Origin: Phycisphaerae bacterium RAS2 | GTDB taxonomy: Bacteria; Planctomycetota; Phycisphaerae; UBA1845; UTPLA1 | Direction of reading: 5' to 3' | DNA: 64,000 nucleotides | NCBI GenBank assembly: GCA_007753915.1 | Contig: CP036352.1 | Location: 2,356,001-2,420,000, forward strand | Shown here: piece after piece, positions 44,201-55,922 of the stretch | Layout: every line of letters starts with the position of its first letter | Numbering within the stretch: the stretch's first letter is position 1 | Program-made: the position numbers and the translations under genes | The notes under the pieces: generated by a model | What the model was told of the DNA's origin: nothing | Databases searched by the model: none | The model's input: only the letters and a program-made list of their open reading frames with translations

Positions 44201-46126
44201 TCATTCGCCGAACGTCAGTTCCGCCAGCGGCACCTCGGCCTCCATCGAGTCCATCGCCACGACCGCTTGCTGCCGATCCAGCTTGATTCGAACGACGCGC
44301 CCGGGTTTGTCGAACCGACGCACGAACACGGCATCCCCCGGCTGCAAGCGCATCACGCGTTCGACCCATGCCGCATAACGCGACTTCTGCTCCGCCAGCT
44401 TCTTGGCGATATCGACGGCCGTCAGCGCCGCCCTGGCCGCCTCGGAGCGCGCCGCATCCGCATCGCGCCGGGCTCGCTCGGCGTCGCGCCGCGATTGAAG
44501 CGTGCCGACGATGGCGCGCTGCAGCGCACGATGCCGCCCCGCGAGGTGCTTGCGCGCGGCGTCGGCCAATTTGCGCGGCATGCCCAGCTTCGTCGCGATC
44601 GTGATCGCGCTGCTGTGACCCGGCTCGCCGATGCGCAGCTCATAGGTCGGGCGAAGCGATTCGATGTCAAATTGGACCGAGGCATTGTCCACGCGCGGGT
44701 GATCGTATCCGACCGCCTTGAGCGCCCCCAGATGCGTCGTGATCATCGCGAGGCAGCCGCCATGCAACAGGTGATCGATGATCGCGCGGCCGATCGCGGC
44801 GCCTTCGTCCGGGTCGGTGCCGGCGCCGAGTTCATCCAGCAGCACGAGCGTGCCCTTCCGCGCGCGGCGGATGATGTCGAGGATGCGCGCCAAGTGCGCG
44901 CTGAACGTCGAAAGCGATTGTTGCAGGCTCTGCTCATCGCCGACATCGATCCAGATGCCTTCAAATACCGGCATTTCCGAGCCGGTCAACGCAGGAATCG
45001 GCAGGCCCGACTGGTGCATCAGGCTGATCAGGCCCACGGTCTTGAGCGCGGCCGTCTTGCCACCGGTGTTCGGGCCGGTAATCATCAAAATGTCGAAATC
45101 ATCCCCGAGGCGCACGTCGATCGGCACGACCGATCGCGTCGAAGCCGGTCCGGTCGCCGCGCCGGAGCCCTCCGCATCCTGCGCGCCGGACATCGCGAGG
45201 AGAATCGGATTTCGCGCCTGGATCAACTTCAGCCGGCCGGACTGGTTGAGGGCCGCGTAGGCCATGCCCCAGCGCGCCGCAAAGCGCTGCTTGGCTGCGA
45301 GCAGGTCAACGACCGCCAGGGTCTCCATGGTGCGCAGCAACTCCGCCTGGTTCAGATGAACCAGATGAGTCAGCTCCCACAGGATGCGATTGATCTCGTC
45401 CGACTCGTCCTGAAGCAGATTCATCAGCCGGTTGTTCAGCTCGACGGCTTCGGCCGGTTCGACGAAAAGCGTCTGCCCGCTGTCGCTGCTGCGATGAACG
45501 ATGCCGGGGATGCGCCCGCGCTGCTCGGCGCGAAGCGGCAGCACCATGCGGTCGGCGTGAAAGGTCGCGTTGGGGTATTGCAGCCAGCGCAGCACGCCCG
45601 GCTGGCGCAGCAGACGGTCAAACACGTTGCGCGTCGCAAGGCGCACATCATCGATGTCGCGCCGGATGCGCGCCAGCCGCGCCGAGGCGTCATCGCGCAC
45701 TCGCCCGCGCGCGTCGATCACGGCATCGATCCGCTCGATGATGGCCGTGAAATCTCCGATTCGATCAGCCAGCTTTCGAACCAGCGCGGCCCCTGCATCC
45801 AGCGGCTCGAAATAGCGCCGGACATTAGCCGCCCCACGCAGCGTGTCCGACAATTTCGCAAATTCCTCCGGCTCCAGTTTGGCTGGCGGCACGGCACGCT
45901 TCACCACCGCACGAAGATCGGTGATTCCGCCGAACGGCGGCATCCCATGGCGCGCCACGAAGGCCTCAAACTGCTTTGCCTGATCCAGCCACTGCGCCAC
46001 CTGACCGGCCGAGCGCGACGGCGCGATGCGCGACGCCAGCTCCCGCCCCAGCGCGCACTGCGCCTGTTCGGCCACAAGCTGCCGAATGCGCTCGAACTCC
46101 AGTTTCTCCAACGTGTGCGCGTCCAT
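44201..46126 (-). CDS. mutS2: MutS2-family ATPase lacking the Smr domain
   Basis: The 641-residue protein has the MutS2 layout: helical core and clamp, then an ABC-type ATPase with Walker A ITGPNTGGKTAALKTVGL, LVLLDELGAGTDPDEGAA and GHSSAITIATKLGMP, then a coiled-coil arm and a KOW-like end GDAVFVRRFDKPGRVVRIKL. Typical MutS2 is near 780 residues and ends in an Smr nuclease domain; here the stop follows directly after the KOW-like part. MutS2 acts on branched DNA and on collided ribosomes. ATG 46126 starts MDAHTLEKLEFERI as in the family. Confidence 0.9.
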   Translation of the reverse strand: MDAHTLEKLEFERIRQLVAEQAQCALGRELASRIAPSRSAGQVAQWLDQAKQFEAFVARHGMPPFGGITDLRAVVKRAVPPAKLEPEEFAKLSDTLRGAANVRRYFEPLDAGAALVRKLADRIGDFTAIIERIDAVIDARGRVRDDASARLARIRRDIDDVRLATRNVFDRLLRQPGVLRWLQYPNATFHADRMVLPLRAEQRGRIPGIVHRSSDSGQTLFVEPAEAVELNNRLMNLLQDESDEINRILWELTHLVHLNQAELLRTMETLAVVDLLAAKQRFAARWGMAYAALNQSGRLKLIQARNPILLAMSGAQDAEGSGAATGPASTRSVVPIDVRLGDDFDILMITGPNTGGKTAALKTVGLISLMHQSGLPIPALTGSEMPVFEGIWIDVGDEQSLQQSLSTFSAHLARILDIIRRARKGTLVLLDELGAGTDPDEGAAIGRAIIDHLLHGGCLAMITTHLGALKAVGYDHPRVDNASVQFDIESLRPTYELRIGEPGHSSAITIATKLGMPRKLADAARKHLAGRHRALQRAIVGTLQSRRDAERARRDADAARSEAARAALTAVDIAKKLAEQKSRYAAWVERVMRLQPGDAVFVRRFDKPGRVVRIKLDRQQAVVAMDSMEAEVPLAELTFGE

Positions 46127-46296
46127 GCGACATAGTGTAGCCGCCACCCCATCCGGCGGGCGAATCGTCATCGCGCGGCAACCTCGAGACTCTTCGCTCG
46201 CAATGACCCGTCAAAGTGAGAAGATGTTCAGAATGGACAATCAACCAGTGCTGGCTTGCTTTCGCAATTCGCTATTCGCCGTTTGCAATTGCTCAA

Positions 46297-47145
46297 TTAC
46301 GGATCCCGCCACGTCTTCCATTCCGGCACATAGTGCGGCCCGTTCTCATGGCCGACGCTTCCAATGCGGAACGGCTTCGACTTGAGCCAGCCCGGCTGCA
46401 GCGCGAACGTCTCGACATGCCCATCGACCAGCGCCGCCTGCGTGCGGCCGTCGTGACGGAACGACGTGGTCGGGCTTTCGTTTTCGCTCCAAGTGCCCGA
46501 CGAGTAGAGCCACGGCGGATCGAGCAGCGCGGTGTTCCACGGCTGACTGCCACCCAAATCGAGCATCGCGTCGGCGAATGCAAACACGCGCGATGCGTCT
46601 TTCACCGATGAAAGCGTCTGCCAGCGCAAATGACCGATGGACCACGAGTAGCTTGTCGCGTGCGGCGGGGAGAGGTAATACCCGTTGTAGCCGTAGGTGC
46701 TGGTCACGCGCTTGGCCGCGCCCTGCGGCCTGTAGCTCCCGAACGGTTGCTGCGGGCATTCATAGACACTTGTCGCGCTCAACGGGGATTGCAAGTAGGG
46801 CCACAGAAAACCCCGCTCGTGATCGACCTGTCCCGCTTCGTTCGTGCCCCACCAGTAAACGGTCGGCCCAGTTCCGATGATCTCCGGCGCGGTGTAGGCC
46901 AGCGGCATCAAGCGGCCGTCGTGCGCGTCGGCGTACATCGTCAGGCCCGTGCCGATTTCGCGCAGCCGAGCCTGGCATGCGGTCGCCCGCGCCCGGCGCG
47001 AGGCTCCGGACAGCGCCGGCGCGAGAATCGCCAGCAAGGTCGCGATGATCGCGATCGCTACGAGCAGCTCGATGAGCGAAAGCGCCGGTCGGAACCGCGG
47101 GCGCAATCGTGTCGTGCTCTTGCGAATGTTCGACGCAAGCGTCAT
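46297..47145 (-). CDS. Prepilin-like protein with H-x9-DG C-terminal motif
   Basis: The 282-residue protein has a type IV prepilin N-terminus (LSLIELLVAIAIIATLLAIL after a basic leader) and the planctomycete-type end FRHDGRTQAALVDGHVE (H-x9-DG). Such proteins occur in large numbers in planctomycetes, are probably processed by a prepilin peptidase and sit on the cell surface. The ATG overlaps the stop of the upstream PQQ-propeller gene (ATGA at 47142-47145), so the two are co-translated. The exact role is unknown. Confidence 0.9.
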   Translation of the reverse strand: MTLASNIRKSTTRLRPRFRPALSLIELLVAIAIIATLLAILAPALSGASRRARATACQARLREIGTGLTMYADAHDGRLMPLAYTAPEIIGTGPTVYWWGTNEAGQVDHERGFLWPYLQSPLSATSVYECPQQPFGSYRPQGAAKRVTSTYGYNGYYLSPPHATSYSWSIGHLRWQTLSSVKDASRVFAFADAMLDLGGSQPWNTALLDPPWLYSSGTWSENESPTTSFRHDGRTQAALVDGHVETFALQPGWLKSKPFRIGSVGHENGPHYVPEWKTWRDP

Positions 47146-48650
47146 GGCACTCCCAACAGGGCCGCGACGAAGTCCGGCACGTCTTCCACCGTCAACATGC
47201 CGTCCGAAGTGAAATCCAGCAGCGCCGCGTCGGCAATCGACGACCCGTGAAGGAGCCGATCCACGAAGCAGGCGATGTCCAGACCGTTTAGGGTTCCATC
47301 TCCTGTGCAGTCGCCTCGCCGCGCCAGCGCCGTCAAGCCAGCCGGACCGATCGAATACAATTGGCCATCGGCCAATGCCGGGCTGCTCCCCATGCCCATA
47401 CGGTGTTCACGCACAAAGAGCGGATCGCCCGGTGAACGCGACACGTCCAGCGCGTACAAGTCTGTGTAAGCACCAAAGAACCCACCACCCGTCGGAATCT
47501 TGCCGACGTACAGCACACCATCCGAATACACCGGTTGATGCGTCCAGCCGCCGAGGACCAGCGCACCGCCTGTATCGACATACGTATCCCACAGCTTCAC
47601 CGCCAATGCGCCGTCGTCGCGGAAGCACTGCACCTTCGGCGCGGAGCCGAATCCGTTGATTCCCGCCGACAAGTAAATGCGATCTTCCACCACGACGGGA
47701 GTCGAGCTGGTGCGCTCGCACGGTATGGTCCAGACGGGTTGCCCGGTCGCAGCGTCGAGTTTGACGAGCAGCGAATTATCGCCCGAGCCGCTCAAGTTGT
47801 AGCTCGCCGCGTACAAATACCCATTCGCGAGCGTCACGCCTCCGAAAAAACCCGTCCCCGCGCAAGTCGTCCACAGCCGACGCGATCCCGGCGGCGCGGC
47901 CACCTCAAGCGCCGTGATGGCGCCGATTTCGAAACAACTCTGCTCGTCAAAAGAAATCGACGACACATAGACGATGCCGCCCTCCCCCGCTGCCGTCGCG
48001 CCCGAAGCTCCGCCGATCGGCTCGGACCATACGATTTCGCCCGGTTCATACGGATTGCCCACCGCGTTGAGCGGCGATGTATTAATGCAATACAGCGACG
48101 CGCTCTGGCCGAACCCGTCGAAGTCCGTGATGAACGCCCGGCCCGCCGCGGCATCAGGCAACACCAGCGGCGAGGCGTTGACGACGTTGCGATTCAGAAC
48201 AGCTGTCCATCGCAGCTCTCCCGTCAGCGCATCCACGGCGTTCAATCGCGCACCAGTCGCAAGCAACACCAAGCCGTTCACCTCGTCCACCGCCGGCGAC
48301 GACCACGAGTCCAGCACCGACTTTGCGACAAGCGTCTGCCACAGCACCTGCCCCGTCGATGCCTCTACCGCAACGAGCTTGTTGTTCACATGAAGATTGC
48401 TGACCAGGTGCCTCGCGTTGACATACACGCGGCCGGCAAACACGACCGGACCGCTCGGCCCTTCAAACGCGATCGGCGTACCGGGCGGATGCTGTGAAAC
48501 CGACCAGAGTGTCGCGTTGAGCGAATCGGGCGCATGCTGCGCGATGCCGCTGCGGCGCGCGTCGCCTGCGTAATGCAGCCAGTCGTCGGCTCGCGCGGTT
48601 GCTCCCCACGCAGCAGCAATTAGCGCCAGGATCGTGCATCGGTGAATCAT
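47142..48650 (-). CDS. Secreted PQQ-like beta-propeller protein with dockerin-like tail
   Basis: The 502-residue protein has a signal peptide (MIHRCTILALIAAAWGATAR) and repeated beta-propeller blades of the PQQ type (LVAVEASTGQVLWQTLV, LNAVDALTGELRWTAVL, LVKLDAATGQPVWTIPC). The C-terminal 60 residues hold two Ca-binding loops (GDCTGDGTLNGLDIACFVDR and LDFTSDGMLTVEDVPDFVAA), a dockerin-like domain. PQQ-binding enzyme residues are not apparent, so a structural role is more likely. It is coupled to the downstream prepilin-like gene. Confidence 0.85.
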   Translation of the reverse strand: MIHRCTILALIAAAWGATARADDWLHYAGDARRSGIAQHAPDSLNATLWSVSQHPPGTPIAFEGPSGPVVFAGRVYVNARHLVSNLHVNNKLVAVEASTGQVLWQTLVAKSVLDSWSSPAVDEVNGLVLLATGARLNAVDALTGELRWTAVLNRNVVNASPLVLPDAAAGRAFITDFDGFGQSASLYCINTSPLNAVGNPYEPGEIVWSEPIGGASGATAAGEGGIVYVSSISFDEQSCFEIGAITALEVAAPPGSRRLWTTCAGTGFFGGVTLANGYLYAASYNLSGSGDNSLLVKLDAATGQPVWTIPCERTSSTPVVVEDRIYLSAGINGFGSAPKVQCFRDDGALAVKLWDTYVDTGGALVLGGWTHQPVYSDGVLYVGKIPTGGGFFGAYTDLYALDVSRSPGDPLFVREHRMGMGSSPALADGQLYSIGPAGLTALARRGDCTGDGTLNGLDIACFVDRLLHGSSIADAALLDFTSDGMLTVEDVPDFVAALLGVP

Positions 48651-48757: not shown

Positions 48758-49561
48758 TCAAGCTCGCCGTGACCGGCCGCGCCGCAGCAGCAACATCGCC
48801 GGCGCGAGCAGCGCCAGCGTCGCCGGCTCCGGCACGCGCACGAACGCATCCACCTCGGTGCTCCAGGTCGCGCCCTCCGGCACGCGCACGCGCGCAAACG
48901 CCGCGCTGGCCAGGCCGGACTCCGCGATGTCGCACGGCGTGCCGCCGCCCGATCCGTCGTACAGCGCCAGCGCCTGCGAATAGGTCAACCCGACCAAATC
49001 GCCAATCGTCAATGTCGGATCGATCGGCTTGAGAAAATCCGTCGGGACCGAGCCGGCCGGGAAACCGAACTCGCCGCTGTCGAGGTAGCCCTGGGTCGGG
49101 AAGAGGCCGTCCGCCGCGCAGCTCAATGGTCGCCAGTCGAAGCCGTCGGCCGAAACTTCGACGATGCCCGGCTCCGGCGAAATGCCGGTGATGGGGAAGT
49201 TCGGATCGCCGAAATCGAGATTGAAAAAGGTGTTGCCGAAGACGATGAGGTCCACGCCGTATGGATGCAACGGGTCGTTCACGATCGGCGCGTCGAATCC
49301 GACCGTGATCCAGCCGCCGGCGCCGACGCTCAAGACTTCATCGGTGCCGAAGGGCGACGAGAACATCGTCACGTCACCGGGAAACGGGGTCAGCTCGCCG
49401 GTGTAACGCTCGGGCGAACCAAGCACGACGGTTGAATCGCCCGTGTATCCCGGCTCGGCGCCGATGCCGGGGCTGTAGTCCAGCGCCTGCGTGGCAAACG
49501 GCGTTGCATACGCCGACCCCGCCGCCGACATCGCGATAACTGTTGCGATGATCCCTCGCAT
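48758..49561 (-). CDS. PEP-CTERM surface protein under cobalamin riboswitch control
   Basis: The 267-residue protein has a signal peptide (MRGIIATVIAMSAAGSAYA) and ends in a PEP-CTERM sorting signal (VPEPATLALLAPAMLLLRRG and a basic tail) for exosortase processing. The body begins with LDYSPGIGAEPGYTGDSTVV and contains GDVTMFSSPFGTDEVLSVGA, a beta-rich secreted domain I cannot name. A cobalamin riboswitch and terminator precede it at 49701-49980. The riboswitch implies that it is made only when cobalamin is scarce, so a surface role in cobalamin capture is inferred. Confidence 0.85.
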   Translation of the reverse strand: MRGIIATVIAMSAAGSAYATPFATQALDYSPGIGAEPGYTGDSTVVLGSPERYTGELTPFPGDVTMFSSPFGTDEVLSVGAGGWITVGFDAPIVNDPLHPYGVDLIVFGNTFFNLDFGDPNFPITGISPEPGIVEVSADGFDWRPLSCAADGLFPTQGYLDSGEFGFPAGSVPTDFLKPIDPTLTIGDLVGLTYSQALALYDGSGGGTPCDIAESGLASAAFARVRVPEGATWSTEVDAFVRVPEPATLALLAPAMLLLRRGRSRRA

Positions 49562-49700
49562 GATGGCCCGTGGTACACCACTTGGCCGGGCCGCTTGCGA
49601 CCCGCTGCATGCAACGACCACACCATTTCTGAACTCTTTGCAACTCGCGACTTTTGTCCTCATCCCAGACTTCCTTCCTGCGGCCATCATGCGTGGCCAC

Positions 49701-49735
49701 AAAAAAACCTCCGTACCGCGGTTGCGGAACGGAGG
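49701..49735 (-). terminator. Intrinsic terminator of the cobalamin riboswitch
   Basis: On the minus strand CCTCCGT, a 14-base loop, ACGGAGG, then seven Ts (49707-49701). It lies between the riboswitch aptamer and the PEP-CTERM start, so control is at transcription elongation. Confidence 0.85.
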
Positions 49736-49819
49736 CGGAAGCCTGCGAGCGCGAGGGGCGCGAAAGCCCGTGCGCGATCGAAGCCGGCCCAGATCCGGGG
49801 CGGTACGACTAAATCGACA

Positions 49820-49980
49820 CAGGCAGGTCTTCTGGCTCTCGGATCGATCTACTGGCCGCGCCTTCTCATCGACTTGCGACAATGGCGTGTGCGGCGTTCG
49901 TCCCCGATTACAGCGGCGGGACCGCGGTGGACTTGCACCACCTTCCCTGCAAACAGCCTCCCCACACGGGAGACCTGTGC
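49820..49980 (-). promoter_or_regulatory. Cobalamin riboswitch
   Basis: The minus strand shows the conserved aptamer parts in order: GGGAAGGTGGTGCAAGTCC near the 5' end, CCGCGGTCCCGCCGCTGTAA, and the B12 box AGCCAGAAGACCTGCC (49837-49822). The ends pair as P1 (ACAGGTCT at 49978-49971 with AGACCTG in the B12 box). The spacing and core sequences match the adenosylcobalamin aptamer class. The gene it controls starts at 49561. Confidence 0.95.
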
Positions 49981-50582
49981 CGTATCTATTCAATTGTCAA
50001 TTTGCGACCGTGCCGAAGCGACGACCGGCTCGGCCGGTAGTCTGCCGCAGCGTGCCGCCCGATGCAAGCATTTTCTTTCCGGACGCTGGAACGCGCCCCT
50101 TCCCGCGAATCGCAAGACAATGTCCTGTATGCACTTGCCGCCGGGCTTGTGTCGAATGCTCCAGCGGCTCAACTGGCAAAACTCCGGCCGATATCACGCG
50201 CCGGGCAGGCATTCTTTCACGACTTCGCGCGACGCAATTGACTCCGGCCGACCAGCGCGCGTACGAATACTCTGGAGCGCGAGTGAATCACGCTTCAATC
50301 CGCGGCGGCTCGAAATAACCGGCCGCGCCGCGCATCACAGGTGAATCGACCCGAGGGTGGAGGGGCCGATTCCGCGACGGCCGGCCATCAGATGACCCCC
50401 CAAGGTTGGGCGCCCTGCCCAACCGTTTATGCCCCGCTGCGACCGAGCGCCCACTCGGTCGCGCAAGAATGGCGCTGCGGCTCGCTTCCCTACGGAGGCC
50501 CGCAGCGCCATTTGCATTGACTTCAACTGTAGCCGCAAGCTTTGATGCAGCGATGGGTTCCGCGACATACGCGAACAAGCCG
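49981..50582. other. Non-coding stretch with three palindromes
   Basis: Between the riboswitch and the end of the YadA-like gene there is no gene. The right part (50404-50512) holds three consecutive stem-loops; the rest (50000-50400) shows nothing recognisable. Confidence 0.5.
50404..50512. repeat. Cluster of three palindromes after the YadA-like gene
   Basis: GGTTGGGC-GCCCT-GCCCAACC at 50404-50424, GCGACCGAG / CTCGGTCGC at 50439-50462, and a 13-base stem AATGGCGCTGCGG / CCGCAGCGCCATT at 50468-50512 with a 19-base loop. No T run follows on either strand, so a plain terminator is unlikely. The first resembles the GGTGGGC palindrome at 38549. Confidence 0.6.
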
Positions 50583-52337
50583 CTACGGTCGCCCGACCAC
50601 GTGAACGTAGAACGCGGCGTCGAGCGGAACAAATGCAGCGCCATTGAAGGCCTTGGTCGATATATCGACGTAATTCTGGTTGGCAACGGCGGTGGCCATG
50701 ACGGGATCGTTCAGAGATTTGACTGTGACGACGGCCGACACGCCGTTGGGTAATTGGCGTTTGAACGTTGCGCGATAAAGTCCTGTGCCGCCCAGTTTGG
50801 CCACTGTGCACCCATAGCTGGATGCTGCGACGCCGTTGAATTGAACGTCAGCCCATGCATACACAACATTGTCATTGTATACCCCGCCTTCCGCGGGCGC
50901 ATTAACGGGACCCAGGCTGTCTTCGGCTTCGAAAAACGGAGAAACGACAACTTCTGCCGCGTCGAGTTCCAGAACGCCGGTGCGGCCGTTCTCGCCAATG
51001 ATGAAAAGCGGGTCTTCGTCCCCATCCGCAATTATGAAGAGCGCATTCGCTTCGTCGTCGTTGGAGTCCAACTTGAATCCGAAATCGCCATTGCTGAAGA
51101 AAACGAGATCACTGCTTGGCAGTACCGGATCGGAACGGATAAGTCCATTATCGTTGCCATCCGTTCCTCCCAGCACCAGGTCCGGCGTGTCATCGTCAGC
51201 TGCTTGTGCATGCAATGCCCCCTGCGGAGCATTGGTGTTGATCCCAACTCCTCCCGCCGAACGGATTAAGAATTGATCTGACGCCGTTGACTGAAATGGC
51301 ACGGGAACTCCTGCAGTGTCTGTCCAAACGAAAGCGCCATCGTGAATCGCGCGAGCATTGTATCCAGCGGCAAGCGAAGCAAATCCCGTTGCGTGACACT
51401 GGAATCCGCCGGGGACCATCGCCAGCAACGCGGTGGCGCGGTTGTCCCGGCCTCCGCCGATGTATGATAGATTCGCCGTGGCTTCGTTCCCCTGGCCGCC
51501 GGCTATTGTCGAGTACTCGCCCTGGGCTTCGTTTGAAGTGCCGCCGCCTACGGTGGAACTGAAACCGCTTGCCGTATTGACTTGGCCGCCGCCGATTGAC
51601 GCATACCGATTGGCGAGGTTGTTTTCGCCGCCCGCGATCGTTGCACGGTCCCCGCTCGCGGTGTTGTTGGCTCCGCCCCCGATGGTCGCTCGCGAATCTT
51701 CGGACTTATTGTTTATGCCTCCGCTGATCGTCGCATATGCACCGGACGCGCGATTGTTCTCTCCTCCGGAGATTGTCGCAAACGGCTGAAGCGACGGGTC
51801 GCCATCGTCGTTTCCCGCTCGATTGTCACCACCGCCACCGATCGTTCCAAAGGAGTCGAATATGTGATTCCCCGATCCCGGGGCTGGAGCATTGTTGACA
51901 CCTTTGAACCCGCCGCCGGCGATAGTCCCGGCCATGACACCTGCGGCCATCGTGTTCTGATCCCACCCACCGATGATGTTAGGGCCGAAGTTGTCCGTTG
52001 GTTCAAGCCGCAGCGCCCGGTCGCCCCCCGCGTGCAGATTAAGGGGCTGCGTGTCGGTCGTGCCGATGAAATCCGTCGCCGGATTCGTGCTCAAGTTGCC
52101 TCCAAGCTTCCAGTAAAACGTATCAGAGAATGCTGTGTCCAAAGAAACCACGCCGTTGTTCACGGTTATCCCCTCGCCCGCCAACACCGTTGCATTCTGG
52201 CCGGGCGGCCCTGGCGGTCCTGGCACGGGAGCCGGCGCCGGCAAGGTCTGATCGACATTGGGTGGACAGGCCTGCCCGCTGCAAACGACCGCAGTGAGCA
52301 GAACTAAGGTCAGGATGGATTTGCTTCGTGATTTCAT
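50583..52337 (-). CDS. Surface lipoprotein with collagen-like linker and YadA-head-like repeats
   Basis: The 584-residue protein has a secretion signal ending at CSGQAC (possible lipobox), a short collagen-like linker (PVPGPPGPPGQ), then about ten 14-residue-period repeats of the form GGGxNNxASGxxATI (for example ATISGGENNRASGAYATI), which match the left-handed roll of YadA-type adhesin heads. A C-terminal beta-rich domain follows; no trimeric autotransporter anchor is present. It is divergent from the sigma/kinase pair. ATG 52337 with GGGAG upstream was chosen over 52352. A stalk-bound surface role is inferred. Confidence 0.8.
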   Translation of the reverse strand: MKSRSKSILTLVLLTAVVCSGQACPPNVDQTLPAPAPVPGPPGPPGQNATVLAGEGITVNNGVVSLDTAFSDTFYWKLGGNLSTNPATDFIGTTDTQPLNLHAGGDRALRLEPTDNFGPNIIGGWDQNTMAAGVMAGTIAGGGFKGVNNAPAPGSGNHIFDSFGTIGGGGDNRAGNDDGDPSLQPFATISGGENNRASGAYATISGGINNKSEDSRATIGGGANNTASGDRATIAGGENNLANRYASIGGGQVNTASGFSSTVGGGTSNEAQGEYSTIAGGQGNEATANLSYIGGGRDNRATALLAMVPGGFQCHATGFASLAAGYNARAIHDGAFVWTDTAGVPVPFQSTASDQFLIRSAGGVGINTNAPQGALHAQAADDDTPDLVLGGTDGNDNGLIRSDPVLPSSDLVFFSNGDFGFKLDSNDDEANALFIIADGDEDPLFIIGENGRTGVLELDAAEVVVSPFFEAEDSLGPVNAPAEGGVYNDNVVYAWADVQFNGVAASSYGCTVAKLGGTGLYRATFKRQLPNGVSAVVTVKSLNDPVMATAVANQNYVDISTKAFNGAAFVPLDAAFYVHVVGRP

Positions 52338-52597
52338 CACACACACTCCCATAGATTTGAGTCAAATGCCAGCCCTGACCCTGCGCCGCGCGGTGCCCCG
52401 AGATCATTCGGACCGTTCTCGCATCGGCTGTTTGCAGGCAAGGGCACTCCGGATGATCAAAGGTGGCGGCACGCATCGTTTGATTGTGGTAAGATTCATT
52501 GGAACGATGGTGTCCTCACTCATCTCCGTATAGGCTGGTTGCATTCAACATTGGACGGCACCACCGTTTTTTTGTTCCTCGCATGTTGGGGCTTTCT

Positions 52598-53194
52598 ATG
52601 GAGTCCCAAGCGACCCGAGCGAGCTTGTTGTCGCGCGTTCGCAATTCGTCGGATCAGGAGGCTTGGCGCGAATTCGATGAGACCTATCGCGAATTGATTC
52701 TCCGCTATTGCCTCGCCCGGCGGCTTCAGACTGCCGACGCGGAAGATGTACGACAACTCGTGATGCTTAATCTTGCGAAGGGGCTGCGCACCTTTGAATA
52801 TCGCCCGGAGCGGGGGCGGTTTCGGCACTACCTCTGCAAGACGATTCGCCATGCGATTTCGCATCATGCCGCGCGTCCAAAATCGACGGGCCGGGCACTA
52901 GATACTCTTGAGATCGCGGAGATCGCCATCGGCGATGTCGGCGCACCCGACGACGTCTGGGAACGCGAATGGATGGACCACCATTATCGCATCGCCATGA
53001 GGACGATTCGTAAGTCGTTCGAGCCGCAAAGCATCAGCATGTTCGATCGCCTGCTGGCCGGACAATCAGTCGAAGACGTGGCTGCGGAATTCGGCACGAC
53101 GTCCCAGGCGGTGCACAAGGTGAAGCAGCGGATCCGCAATCGCATGATGGAACTCGTTCAGGAGCAGATTCGGGAAGAGGATGAACCGCTTTGA
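52598..53194 (+). CDS. ECF-type RNA polymerase sigma factor
   Basis: The 198-residue protein has sigma region 2 (about 20-85, with LILRYCLARRLQTADAEDVR) and region 4 (about 125-190, EDVAAEFGTTSQAVHKVKQR). It resembles the planctomycete ECF group whose genes lie beside protein kinases. Start ATG 52598 has GGGG upstream; a second ATG at 52583 is possible. The 3' end overlaps the kinase gene by 14 bp, so the two are translated together. Regulation by the kinase (phosphorylation) is inferred. Confidence 0.9.
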   Translation: MESQATRASLLSRVRNSSDQEAWREFDETYRELILRYCLARRLQTADAEDVRQLVMLNLAKGLRTFEYRPERGRFRHYLCKTIRHAISHHAARPKSTGRALDTLEIAEIAIGDVGAPDDVWEREWMDHHYRIAMRTIRKSFEPQSISMFDRLLAGQSVEDVAAEFGTTSQAVHKVKQRIRNRMMELVQEQIREEDEPL

Positions 53195-55922
53195 CGACAA
53201 CGCGGCAGGGCATCGCGAGGTCGGCTCCAGCGCCGATCTTGCAGGATTTGGGTTTGATCTGCCGGATCATGCGTGGCTAAGTCGCGTTCACCATGCCGAG
53301 CGCAACGCGGAACTGGGTTGGATCGGTCCTTATGAACTGCTGGAAGAGATCGGTCGCGGAGCCCAGGGCATCGTCTATCGTGCGCGACAACGTACGACCC
53401 AAAGGCAAATCGCGCTCAAGCGACTGATCGCCGGCAGCTTCGCCAATCCTGAATCGCGCGCTCGGTTCGATCGGGAAGTGCGCATCGCAGCCGAATTGAA
53501 TCACCCCAACATCGTGACTGTGTACGGCGCGGATATTGTCGACGGCGTTCCAAATCTCGCCATGGAATGGATAAACGGCCTGCCGCTTGACCGATGGGCC
53601 CGCACACACGATGGGGCTGTTCGCTCGATGGGCGATCTCCTGCGCGCTTTCGGGCGAATCTGTGACGCTGTCCAGCACGCACATCAACACGGCGTCATCC
53701 ATCGCGATCTGAAACCGTCCAACATCCTTGTCACGCCTGACGGCGAGCCGCACGTGCTGGATTTCGGGCTGGCGCGGGCAGTGGACCCCGATGGGTCCAT
53801 CGCAACAACGCTGACAGCCACCGAGCAGATGCTCGGCACTCCCGCCTACGCATCGCCAGAGCAGGTCGGATCGGAACCGGCCATCGTTGATACACGTACA
53901 GATGTATATTCTCTTGGTGCGATTCTCTTTCAATTGCTCACAGGCCGGACTCCGCACGACTCGTCGGGCGGCCTCGCCAGGCTGCTTGATTCAATTCGAC
54001 ATGACGATCCCACGGCTCCTTCGCACGTCGCGACCGGTGTCGTTCGCGAGCTGGACCTCATCACGCTGAAGGCGCTGGCGCGTGATCCGGGACAACGCTA
54101 TCAGTCCGTCGACGCGCTTCGATCGGACGTGTCGCGCTTTCTCTCGGGCGAGCCGGTACTCGCCCATCCACCGCGGTTTACGTATCAGGTTCGCAAGTTG
54201 ATCCGTCGCCATCGCACGGCCACGGCGTTCAGCGCTGCCATCGTGTTGCTTGTTGCAGGCATGGCGGCGTTAGCTTTCGTCATGGCCTTGCGGATCGCCG
54301 ATCAGCGGGATCGCGCGATTCGAGCCGAATCGACAGCCGAGCGACGCTTCAAAGAAGTGCGTGGTTTGGCGCGGGCCATGATCTTCGATGTCCATGAACA
54401 CCTGGCGCCGATCGTCGGCGCGACCGAAGCCCGTCGTGCGCTCGTGACGACCGGACTGGAGTACCTCGACCGTCTCGGTCGTGAAGCCGGCGATGATCCC
54501 GTTTTGCTCGCCGAGATCGCCGAGGGTTACCATCGCCTCGGCGCGGTGCAGGGGCTGCGCACCATGGGGAGTCTGGGAGACCTCGCCGGCGCTCGGCAGA
54601 GCTTCGAGAAAATGCAGTCCATCTGCCGCACGATGCTTGAGTCCGACCCGGACGACGTGCGAGCGCTAAATCTTCTGGCCGGCAGCTATCGAGGGCTGGG
54701 TGATGTCCTGACGTTAATGGGCCTTCGCGCCGATGCAATCGCCAGCTACCAGTCCCAGATTGACATTCACACCCGCGTTGCGATACTTGATCCTCACCCT
54801 GCCAAACCGCGCCGACACGCCTACGTCGCCCGCATACAGATGGCAAAGCAGCACCGAGCAGCCGGGGATGCCGATAGCGCAATCAAGTTGTACAACCTTG
54901 CCGCTGCTGACATTCATCAACAGATTCCGCTCTATCCGGACAACACCGACCTTCGCCGCGATCTCGCATTGATCCGTGCACTGGAGTCCGAATTGCTGCT
55001 GCAGACGCAACACATCGACGAGGCCGAAGCTGCTTCGCGCGAGGCGATGAATGTGACGCAAATGCTTGTGTCGCGGCATCCCGAGAACAATCAATTTCAG
55101 CGCGACCTCGCATTGCGCCATCAGGAGATGGCCGACATCGCACTCGCCCGAAAGGACTATCCGGTAGCCCTCGGCTCTTACAGGCAATGCTTGGCCATTC
55201 TCGCGCGATTGGCGGCGGCCGACCCGGCAGACACGGTGGCGCAGCGTGACCTGTCGATCACGCACGAGAAGTTCGGTGACGTCGCGCGGGAACAAGGCGA
55301 CGGGGCTGCGGCGCTGGCGGAATACGAACTTGCGATGCAAATCACTTCTGCGCTGGCCGACGCGCAACCTGACAGCGTTGCCCAGAAACTCGACCTTTGC
55401 ATGATTCGCACCAAAGTCGGCGGCGCACGAGCGCAACAGGGCCAGAACGGAAGCGCCATAGAGCTAATTCAAGACAATCTCGCCAGGCTGGACGAACTGA
55501 CGGATCCCGATTCACCCGACGTAGATCGCTCCAATACTCGGCTGCAATCGCTTCAGCTCCTTGCCGATGCCCAGCTTGCGATGGATCGCCGTGAGGAAGC
55601 TGAAGCGACACTGATACAGTATTACGAAAGTGCAACCGCGGATGCGAAGCATTTCCCCGACCACGATTGGTTCGTTCACCATATCGGTGCAGCCACTGGC
55701 AAATTGGGGGAGCTTCACGAGGCAATCGGCGTCGACGCCACCCAACCGGCCGACACGCGCCGAGACGCCCTGAACACGGCCGAAAATTGGTATCAACGCT
55801 GCAAAGAAGTTGCGAACAAGATCATGCAGGATGAATCAACACCGCCCGATGACACACGGTCTTCGAAGGCATGCGATGAAGCCATCGCTCGGTGTAAAGC
55901 AGCGCTTGCGGGTTTGCATTGA
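53181..55922 (+). CDS. Transmembrane Ser/Thr protein kinase with C-terminal TPR region
   Basis: The 913-residue protein has a complete Hanks-type kinase domain (about residues 50-330): glycine loop IGRGAQGIVY, K80, E99, HRDLKPSNIL with D176, DFGLA with D194, and YASPEQ. One membrane helix follows (about 350-372, SAAIVLLVAGMAALAFVMAL), then tetratricopeptide-type repeats (about 430-890) facing the periplasm. The start overlaps the ECF sigma gene by 14 bp. Sensor input is likely through the periplasmic repeats, and the coupled sigma factor is the obvious output. Confidence 0.95.
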   Translation: MNRFDDNAAGHREVGSSADLAGFGFDLPDHAWLSRVHHAERNAELGWIGPYELLEEIGRGAQGIVYRARQRTTQRQIALKRLIAGSFANPESRARFDREVRIAAELNHPNIVTVYGADIVDGVPNLAMEWINGLPLDRWARTHDGAVRSMGDLLRAFGRICDAVQHAHQHGVIHRDLKPSNILVTPDGEPHVLDFGLARAVDPDGSIATTLTATEQMLGTPAYASPEQVGSEPAIVDTRTDVYSLGAILFQLLTGRTPHDSSGGLARLLDSIRHDDPTAPSHVATGVVRELDLITLKALARDPGQRYQSVDALRSDVSRFLSGEPVLAHPPRFTYQVRKLIRRHRTATAFSAAIVLLVAGMAALAFVMALRIADQRDRAIRAESTAERRFKEVRGLARAMIFDVHEHLAPIVGATEARRALVTTGLEYLDRLGREAGDDPVLLAEIAEGYHRLGAVQGLRTMGSLGDLAGARQSFEKMQSICRTMLESDPDDVRALNLLAGSYRGLGDVLTLMGLRADAIASYQSQIDIHTRVAILDPHPAKPRRHAYVARIQMAKQHRAAGDADSAIKLYNLAAADIHQQIPLYPDNTDLRRDLALIRALESELLLQTQHIDEAEAASREAMNVTQMLVSRHPENNQFQRDLALRHQEMADIALARKDYPVALGSYRQCLAILARLAAADPADTVAQRDLSITHEKFGDVAREQGDGAAALAEYELAMQITSALADAQPDSVAQKLDLCMIRTKVGGARAQQGQNGSAIELIQDNLARLDELTDPDSPDVDRSNTRLQSLQLLADAQLAMDRREEAEATLIQYYESATADAKHFPDHDWFVHHIGAATGKLGELHEAIGVDATQPADTRRDALNTAENWYQRCKEVANKIMQDESTPPDDTRSSKACDEAIARCKAALAGLH

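Follow-up and report, generated by a model that had tools for sequence, protein, structure and literature searches.

Computational analysis of a 64,000-nucleotide window from the genome of Phycisphaerae bacterium RAS2 (CP036352.1, positions 2,356,001 to 2,420,000) predicts a cobalamin-repressed operon for the scavenging of vitamin B12 at the cell surface, a reading to which we give a probability of about 0.8. Computation establishes a complete riboswitch aptamer, a terminator behind it, the order of the genes that follow, homology of the first gene product to the B12-binding domain of BtuH, linkage of the protein family to the riboswitch, and a genome that lacks both CbiC and TonB-dependent receptors. 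From these we infer a switch that responds to cobalamin and is turned off by it, and a protein that binds B12, is displayed on the surface and hands the vitamin on.

The aptamer lies on the reverse strand at 49805–49993 and matches RF00174 over model positions 1–189 with a score of 112.2 bits (E = 2.7e-27; the gathering score is 31.5 bits). It contains the B12 box AGCCAGAAGACCTGCC at 49822–49837, placed by the RF00174 alignment, and is the sole RF00174 match in the entire genome (4.32 Mb, a single contig, 97% complete). A hairpin at 49736–49707 (−21.5 kcal/mol), approximately 70 nt 3′ of the aptamer, together with a tract of seven T, forms an intrinsic terminator (49701–49736, reverse strand); in the sister species both aptamer and terminator are preserved almost letter for letter. 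The initial annotation of this DNA had described a cobalamin riboswitch with a B12 box and a strong terminator, and both descriptions hold; the range it gave (49561–49980) is correct in location and slightly short in extent, as the aptamer reaches 49993. A simple consensus scan of the window did not list the 49736–49707 hairpin, probably because of one mismatch in its stem.

Terminators also follow the aptamer in related genomes: hairpins of at least −10 kcal/mol strength were found within 350 nt of the aptamer in 22 of 38 related loci as against 3 of 114 shuffled controls, these and the following counts being drawn from related, and thus not independent, genomes. A putative antiterminator strand, CGTACCGC (49800–49807, reverse strand), is complementary to GCGGTACG in the 3′ arm of the terminator. 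For 14 of the 22 genomes, where shuffled sequence would lead one to expect 1.5, the strand that pairs best with the 3′ arm of the terminator has its end 5 to 14 nt beyond the aptamer, a result whose significance lies in position alone, the pairing energies being, locus by locus, not above those of shuffles. Judged from sequence, the succession of aptamer, antiterminator and terminator has the layout of a ligand-induced terminator: a strong hairpin combined with a positionally conserved alternative partner makes an expression platform that could be switched.

The first gene behind the terminator (48758–49663, reverse strand) encodes a protein of 301 amino acids when read from the ATG at 49663. 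An alternative ATG at 49561 would give a product of 267 amino acids (P0001). The start is probably at 49663, because the sister genome retains the Shine-Dalgarno sequence AGGAAG in front of it and because, in that species, the frame from this ATG stays open and free of indels even though codons have changed. The protein has an N-terminal signal peptide, which leads straight into a jellyroll domain (no Pfam match was found N-terminal to it), and a C-terminal VPEPATLALLAPAMLLLRRGRSRR. The sorting signal, VPEPATLALLAPAMLLLRRGRSRRA, is encoded at 48761–48835 (reverse strand); its VPEP is invariant in 18 of 18 sequences. The Pfam PEP-CTERM model scores 7 bits on the RAS2 copy, below its cut-off of 20.7; 13 of 28 family members match PF07589 (best E = 4.2e-5). 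As in known exosortase substrates, a signal peptide is combined with a PEP motif, a hydrophobic stretch and a basic end, and the genome encodes an exosortase (E = 1.2e-55). The earlier identification of a secreted PEP-CTERM protein is thus borne out, as is the remark that the gene is neither btuB nor a biosynthesis gene: what the riboswitch precedes is an operon for a surface protein and a pseudopilin. Neither Pfam nor NCBIfam holds a family that covers the protein.

The nature of the jellyroll domain emerged from its predicted fold. The AlphaFold model (pLDDT 91.5, pTM 0.87) has a sole Foldseek match below 1e-3 in the PDB, 8blw_B (E = 4.6e-5), which is BtuG1 (BtuGH), chain B of the BtuB1–BtuG1 complex of Bacteroides thetaiotaomicron, and the match falls on the BtuH part. 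Structural alignment ranks BtuH2 (7biz_B) first, with Z = 13.5 over 152 residues at 29% identity, followed by the BtuH part of 8blw_B (Z = 12.6, 31% identity); unrelated structures, CBM32 and discoidin domains included, reach Z = 9.6 or less at identities of mostly 14% or less. Direct searches of PDB sequences with family profiles did not reach BtuH or find any relative. A bridge exists through a riboswitch-operon protein from one relative (G021, L090:5540-7909): the family profile matches it at E = 1.8e-12, and it in turn matches BtuGH at 7.8e-9 and BtuH2 at 1.2e-8 in a search of PDB sequences. A second riboswitch-operon protein (G020, L094) matches BtuGH and BtuH2 at approximately 1e-5, and a profile–profile comparison with BtuH2 (hhalign) gives E = 3.6e-5 across 54 columns, with GNAF over FGNTF. 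Homology to BtuH thus rests on the fold, the 54-column profile match and the G021 bridge.

Comparison with the BtuH2 sequence (taken from the PDB) identifies, by aligned columns, Asn110 of the FGN-x-F motif (codon at 49232–49234, reverse strand) as the equivalent of Asn399. In BtuH2 this residue contacts the phosphate of B12, while Phe401 touches the lower base (PMC8941943). Asn110 shows no variation among the sequences compared (50 of 50), and Phe112, which corresponds to Phe401, is retained in 29 of the 50. The loops that contact the corrin in BtuH2 (Tyr510, Trp511, Trp577, His476) are long; those of the RAS2 protein are shorter and not matchable residue by residue. Because it has neither N-terminal PKD/Ig-like domains nor a lipoprotein signal, we class the protein as a homologue of the BtuH domain and not as a BtuH lipoprotein. 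It shares the domain of BtuH and probably works like it, and binding of B12 is predicted. Membership of DUF4465 (BtuJ) was considered and rejected: P0001 gives no such Pfam match to E = 10, and none of 28 family members does to E = 1.

Two further genes follow on the same strand and overlap by a few bases. One (47142–48650) encodes a secreted eight-bladed beta-propeller of the BamB/PQQ-like type (PF13360, 8.9e-20) with a weak C-terminal dockerin match; the other (46297–47145) encodes a pseudopilin, or DUF1559-like protein (PF07596, PF07963), with the C-terminal motif IGSVGxENxPHYVPxW, which is conserved as IGSVGxENxPHYVPDW in the subgroup of pseudopilins found beside the propeller. The best structural matches of the propeller are eight-bladed BamB/YxaL-like propellers (Z = 31–37); a relationship to BtuG was considered and is unsupported, BtuG being absent among the matches listed. 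In some relatives (L085:8652-9845, L097:7273-8364, L090:7916-8977) the BtuH-domain gene comes after one for a secreted, propeller-like protein that in most cases carries PEP-CTERM, an order that recalls the BtuG–BtuH pairing of Bacteroides.

Downstream of the operon lies a MutS2-like gene (44201–46171, reverse strand), which keeps this place in several relatives. Upstream of the riboswitch, the gene at 50583–52352 (reverse strand) has a lipoprotein-like start, collagen-like GPPGPPG and YadA-like repeats; its product is a probable surface adhesin. Beyond it, at 52499–55922 on the forward strand, lie an ECF-type sigma factor gene and a gene for a Ser/Thr protein kinase with a TPR-like region, a typical planctomycete pair.

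At E = 1e-3, homologues of the BtuH-domain protein turn up in 49 of the 61 genomes of the order, a number of them as matches that are partial or confined to the sorting signal; the riboswitch occurs in 58 of 61, nearly always as a single copy. At all 18 compared loci with near full-length homologues the riboswitch lies 207–823 nt upstream on the same strand. The two longest of these gaps hold a gene for a PduO-type adenosyltransferase: in L067 (G012) and L070 (G010) this ATP:cob(I)alamin adenosyltransferase is the first gene of the operon, ahead of the BtuH-domain gene. A single-sequence search of the contigs of species genomes returned no relatives; an alignment-based search returned 276, of which the best 80, almost all from Planctomycetota and including the isolate Lacipirellula limnantheis I41, were used for counts of linkage. 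A stringent riboswitch motif – one that fails to detect about one known case in five – was found at 56 of these 80 loci, and never on the opposite strand or in shuffled sequence. Rfam adds a riboswitch at 18 of the 24 motif-negative loci, which brings the loci with a riboswitch directly upstream to 74 of 80 across the phylum; of the six loci with no riboswitch, at least two start no more than 230 nt from the end of a contig. A survey of the family for riboswitch linkage, which the initial annotation had proposed as a check, thus finds linkage both in the near relatives and far beyond them. A pseudopilin homologue is encoded nearby on the same strand at 72 of the 80 loci and a propeller was recognised at 21, while the C-terminal anchor of the family alternates between PEP-CTERM and dockerin-like repeats.

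Other secreted proteins occupy similar positions. A small family with a GG/WWHYW motif, with PEP-CTERM or dockerin-like ends and no Pfam domain, stands directly after cobalamin riboswitches in L088:8797-9324, L100:9005-9739 and L093:6033-6566, and is possibly a further cobamide-binding family. In relatives devoid of the BtuH-domain gene, a different dockerin-ended secreted protein (L081:7549-8778, L083:7749-8861, L082:8774-10087, L087:7090-8301), recognisable by the motif WTExFxDDPxxAxRFxVPxGHD, lies between riboswitch and pseudopilin.

The physiology of the genome bears on what such an operon could be for. RAS2 encodes a cobalamin-dependent methionine synthase (MetH), a MeaB-type B12-binding protein, a PduO adenosyltransferase and a BtuF-BtuC-BtuD-like ABC transporter. 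CbiC, the sole marker of corrin synthesis searched for, is absent from all 61 genomes of the order, and the bacterium, on this evidence, seems unable to make vitamin B12. No TonB-dependent receptor was found in the RAS2 genome by either its plug or its barrel domain, and the plug domain was undetected in 40 of the 61 genomes. Cells that depend on B12 and are unable to synthesise it must import it; here the standard outer-membrane step is absent. Because the operon is the only locus in the genome controlled by a cobalamin riboswitch, it is the best candidate for scavenging. The genome also encodes secretins, so passage of B12 by way of a pseudopilus is possible.

According to the model that we favor, abundant cobalamin in the cytoplasm would be bound by the aptamer and transcription would end at the terminator; under scarcity the sequence just after the aptamer would pair with the 3′ arm of the terminator and the operon would be transcribed. 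The first product would be exported by means of its signal peptide and retained on the surface by the PEP-CTERM/exosortase route, where its jellyroll domain would bind cobamides. These would then be handed towards the BtuFCD-type importer of the inner membrane, to supply methionine synthase and other B12 enzymes. Production of the surface protein at low cobalamin, possibly to capture the vitamin, had been suggested from the DNA letters, and three independent lines now support it: homology to the B12-binding domain of BtuH2 and BtuGH, seen in the fold and through the bridging sequence, near-universal linkage to the riboswitch, and B12-dependent enzymes and an importer with neither the corrin-synthesis marker nor TonB receptors.

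Alternatively, the jellyroll could be a carbohydrate- or matrix-binding domain of the CBM32/discoidin kind that binds no cobalamin, with low cobalamin serving as a cue for adhesion or biofilm matrix. The fold does belong to the wider CBM32/discoidin group (Z = 8–9.6), PEP-CTERM/exosortase surface proteins are usually tied to exopolysaccharide, and in a denitrifier a c-di-GMP riboswitch precedes PEP-CTERM genes (PMC12530212). The identities given above nevertheless separate the BtuH domains (29–31%) from the CBM32 structures (mostly 14% or less), and BtuH and BtuGH are the only proteins reached by way of the sequence bridge; these data, the adenosyltransferase gene found in the operon of two relatives and the breadth of cobalamin riboswitch linkage make a carbohydrate binder improbable. 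Less probable by far is a chance neighborhood, in which the aptamer would be a relic or belong to another transcript and the gene would use a promoter of its own. Planctomycete promoters are poorly predictable, and a scan for sigma-70-like sites found none anywhere in the window, the region upstream of the gene included; yet order and strand are identical at 74 of 80 loci, and between the two species of the genus aptamer and terminator are near identical while the sequence after them changes. We regard coincidence as scarcely credible.

A different question is which gene the riboswitch chiefly serves. If it were the pseudopilin (with the propeller), then the BtuH-domain gene would be one among several that can replace each other in first position and differ in their roles. 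Four genomes that lack the BtuH-domain gene (G009, G002, G008, G015) keep riboswitch and pseudopilin behind a different secreted first protein, and G017 retains propeller and pseudopilin. In most loci, however, the BtuH-domain gene comes first after the riboswitch, and at about 59 of the 80 loci no propeller is recognisable while BtuH domain and pseudopilin are still there. Such a division of roles thus appears unlikely, albeit the least so of the alternatives; it is in any case compatible with capture of B12 rather than opposed to it.

Placed beside known systems, the locus combines familiar parts in an unfamiliar way. With BtuH2 (7biz) and the BtuH part of BtuGH/BtuG1 (8blw) from B. thetaiotaomicron, the RAS2 protein shares a homologous jellyroll B12-binding domain, the FGN/GNAF motif with the equivalent of Asn399, a secreted surface form and a cobalamin-riboswitch locus (PMC8941943, PMC12751083). 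It differs in the lack of PKD/Ig-like domains and of a lipoprotein signal, in the shorter loops of the pocket, in its anchor – PEP-CTERM here, a dockerin-like end in many relatives – and in the absence of a BtuB partner from its operon and of a TonB receptor from the genome. BtuG, BtuH, BtuJ and BtuK of Bacteroides are surface lipoproteins of B12 uptake operons, mostly riboswitch-controlled and several with BtuB (PMC12751083). BtuJ/DUF4465 proteins (IPR027828) are secreted jellyroll B12 binders, some of which carry PEP-CTERM, and a planctomycete member from Mucisphaera has been shown to bind B12 (PMC12751083, PMC13398666); unlike these, P0001 has no DUF4465 match and its nearest structure is BtuH. 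The riboswitch itself resembles other terminator-type RF00174 riboswitches in its full aptamer, B12 box and terminator about 70 nt after the aptamer, but its target is an operon for a surface protein and a pseudopilin in place of btuB or biosynthesis genes. A literature search revealed no previous description of a BtuH domain that is linked to a cobalamin riboswitch and carries a PEP-CTERM anchor, and no paper that ties planctomycete PEP-CTERM or pilin genes to cobalamin. We thus appear to be dealing with a known type of domain in a new anchoring and operon arrangement, undescribed in Planctomycetota.

Surface scavenging of B12 has been worked out in gut Bacteroides, where lipoproteins act with the TonB-dependent transporter BtuB. 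That a homologous binder domain stands behind a cobalamin riboswitch across the Planctomycetota, where it has another kind of anchor and is partnered by a pseudopilin, would mean either that the vitamin crosses the outer membrane by a route not yet described or that a known class of protein has a new job. Competence pseudopili move DNA; by analogy, a surface BtuH-type binder together with the dedicated, riboswitch-controlled pseudopilin (sometimes with the propeller) might move the vitamin across the outer membrane or cell wall in place of BtuB, a TonB-independent acquisition that we put forward as a speculative and rather doubtful extension. The family also allows hundreds of surface proteins that lack annotation, in a phylum widespread in the environment, to be given names that can be tested.
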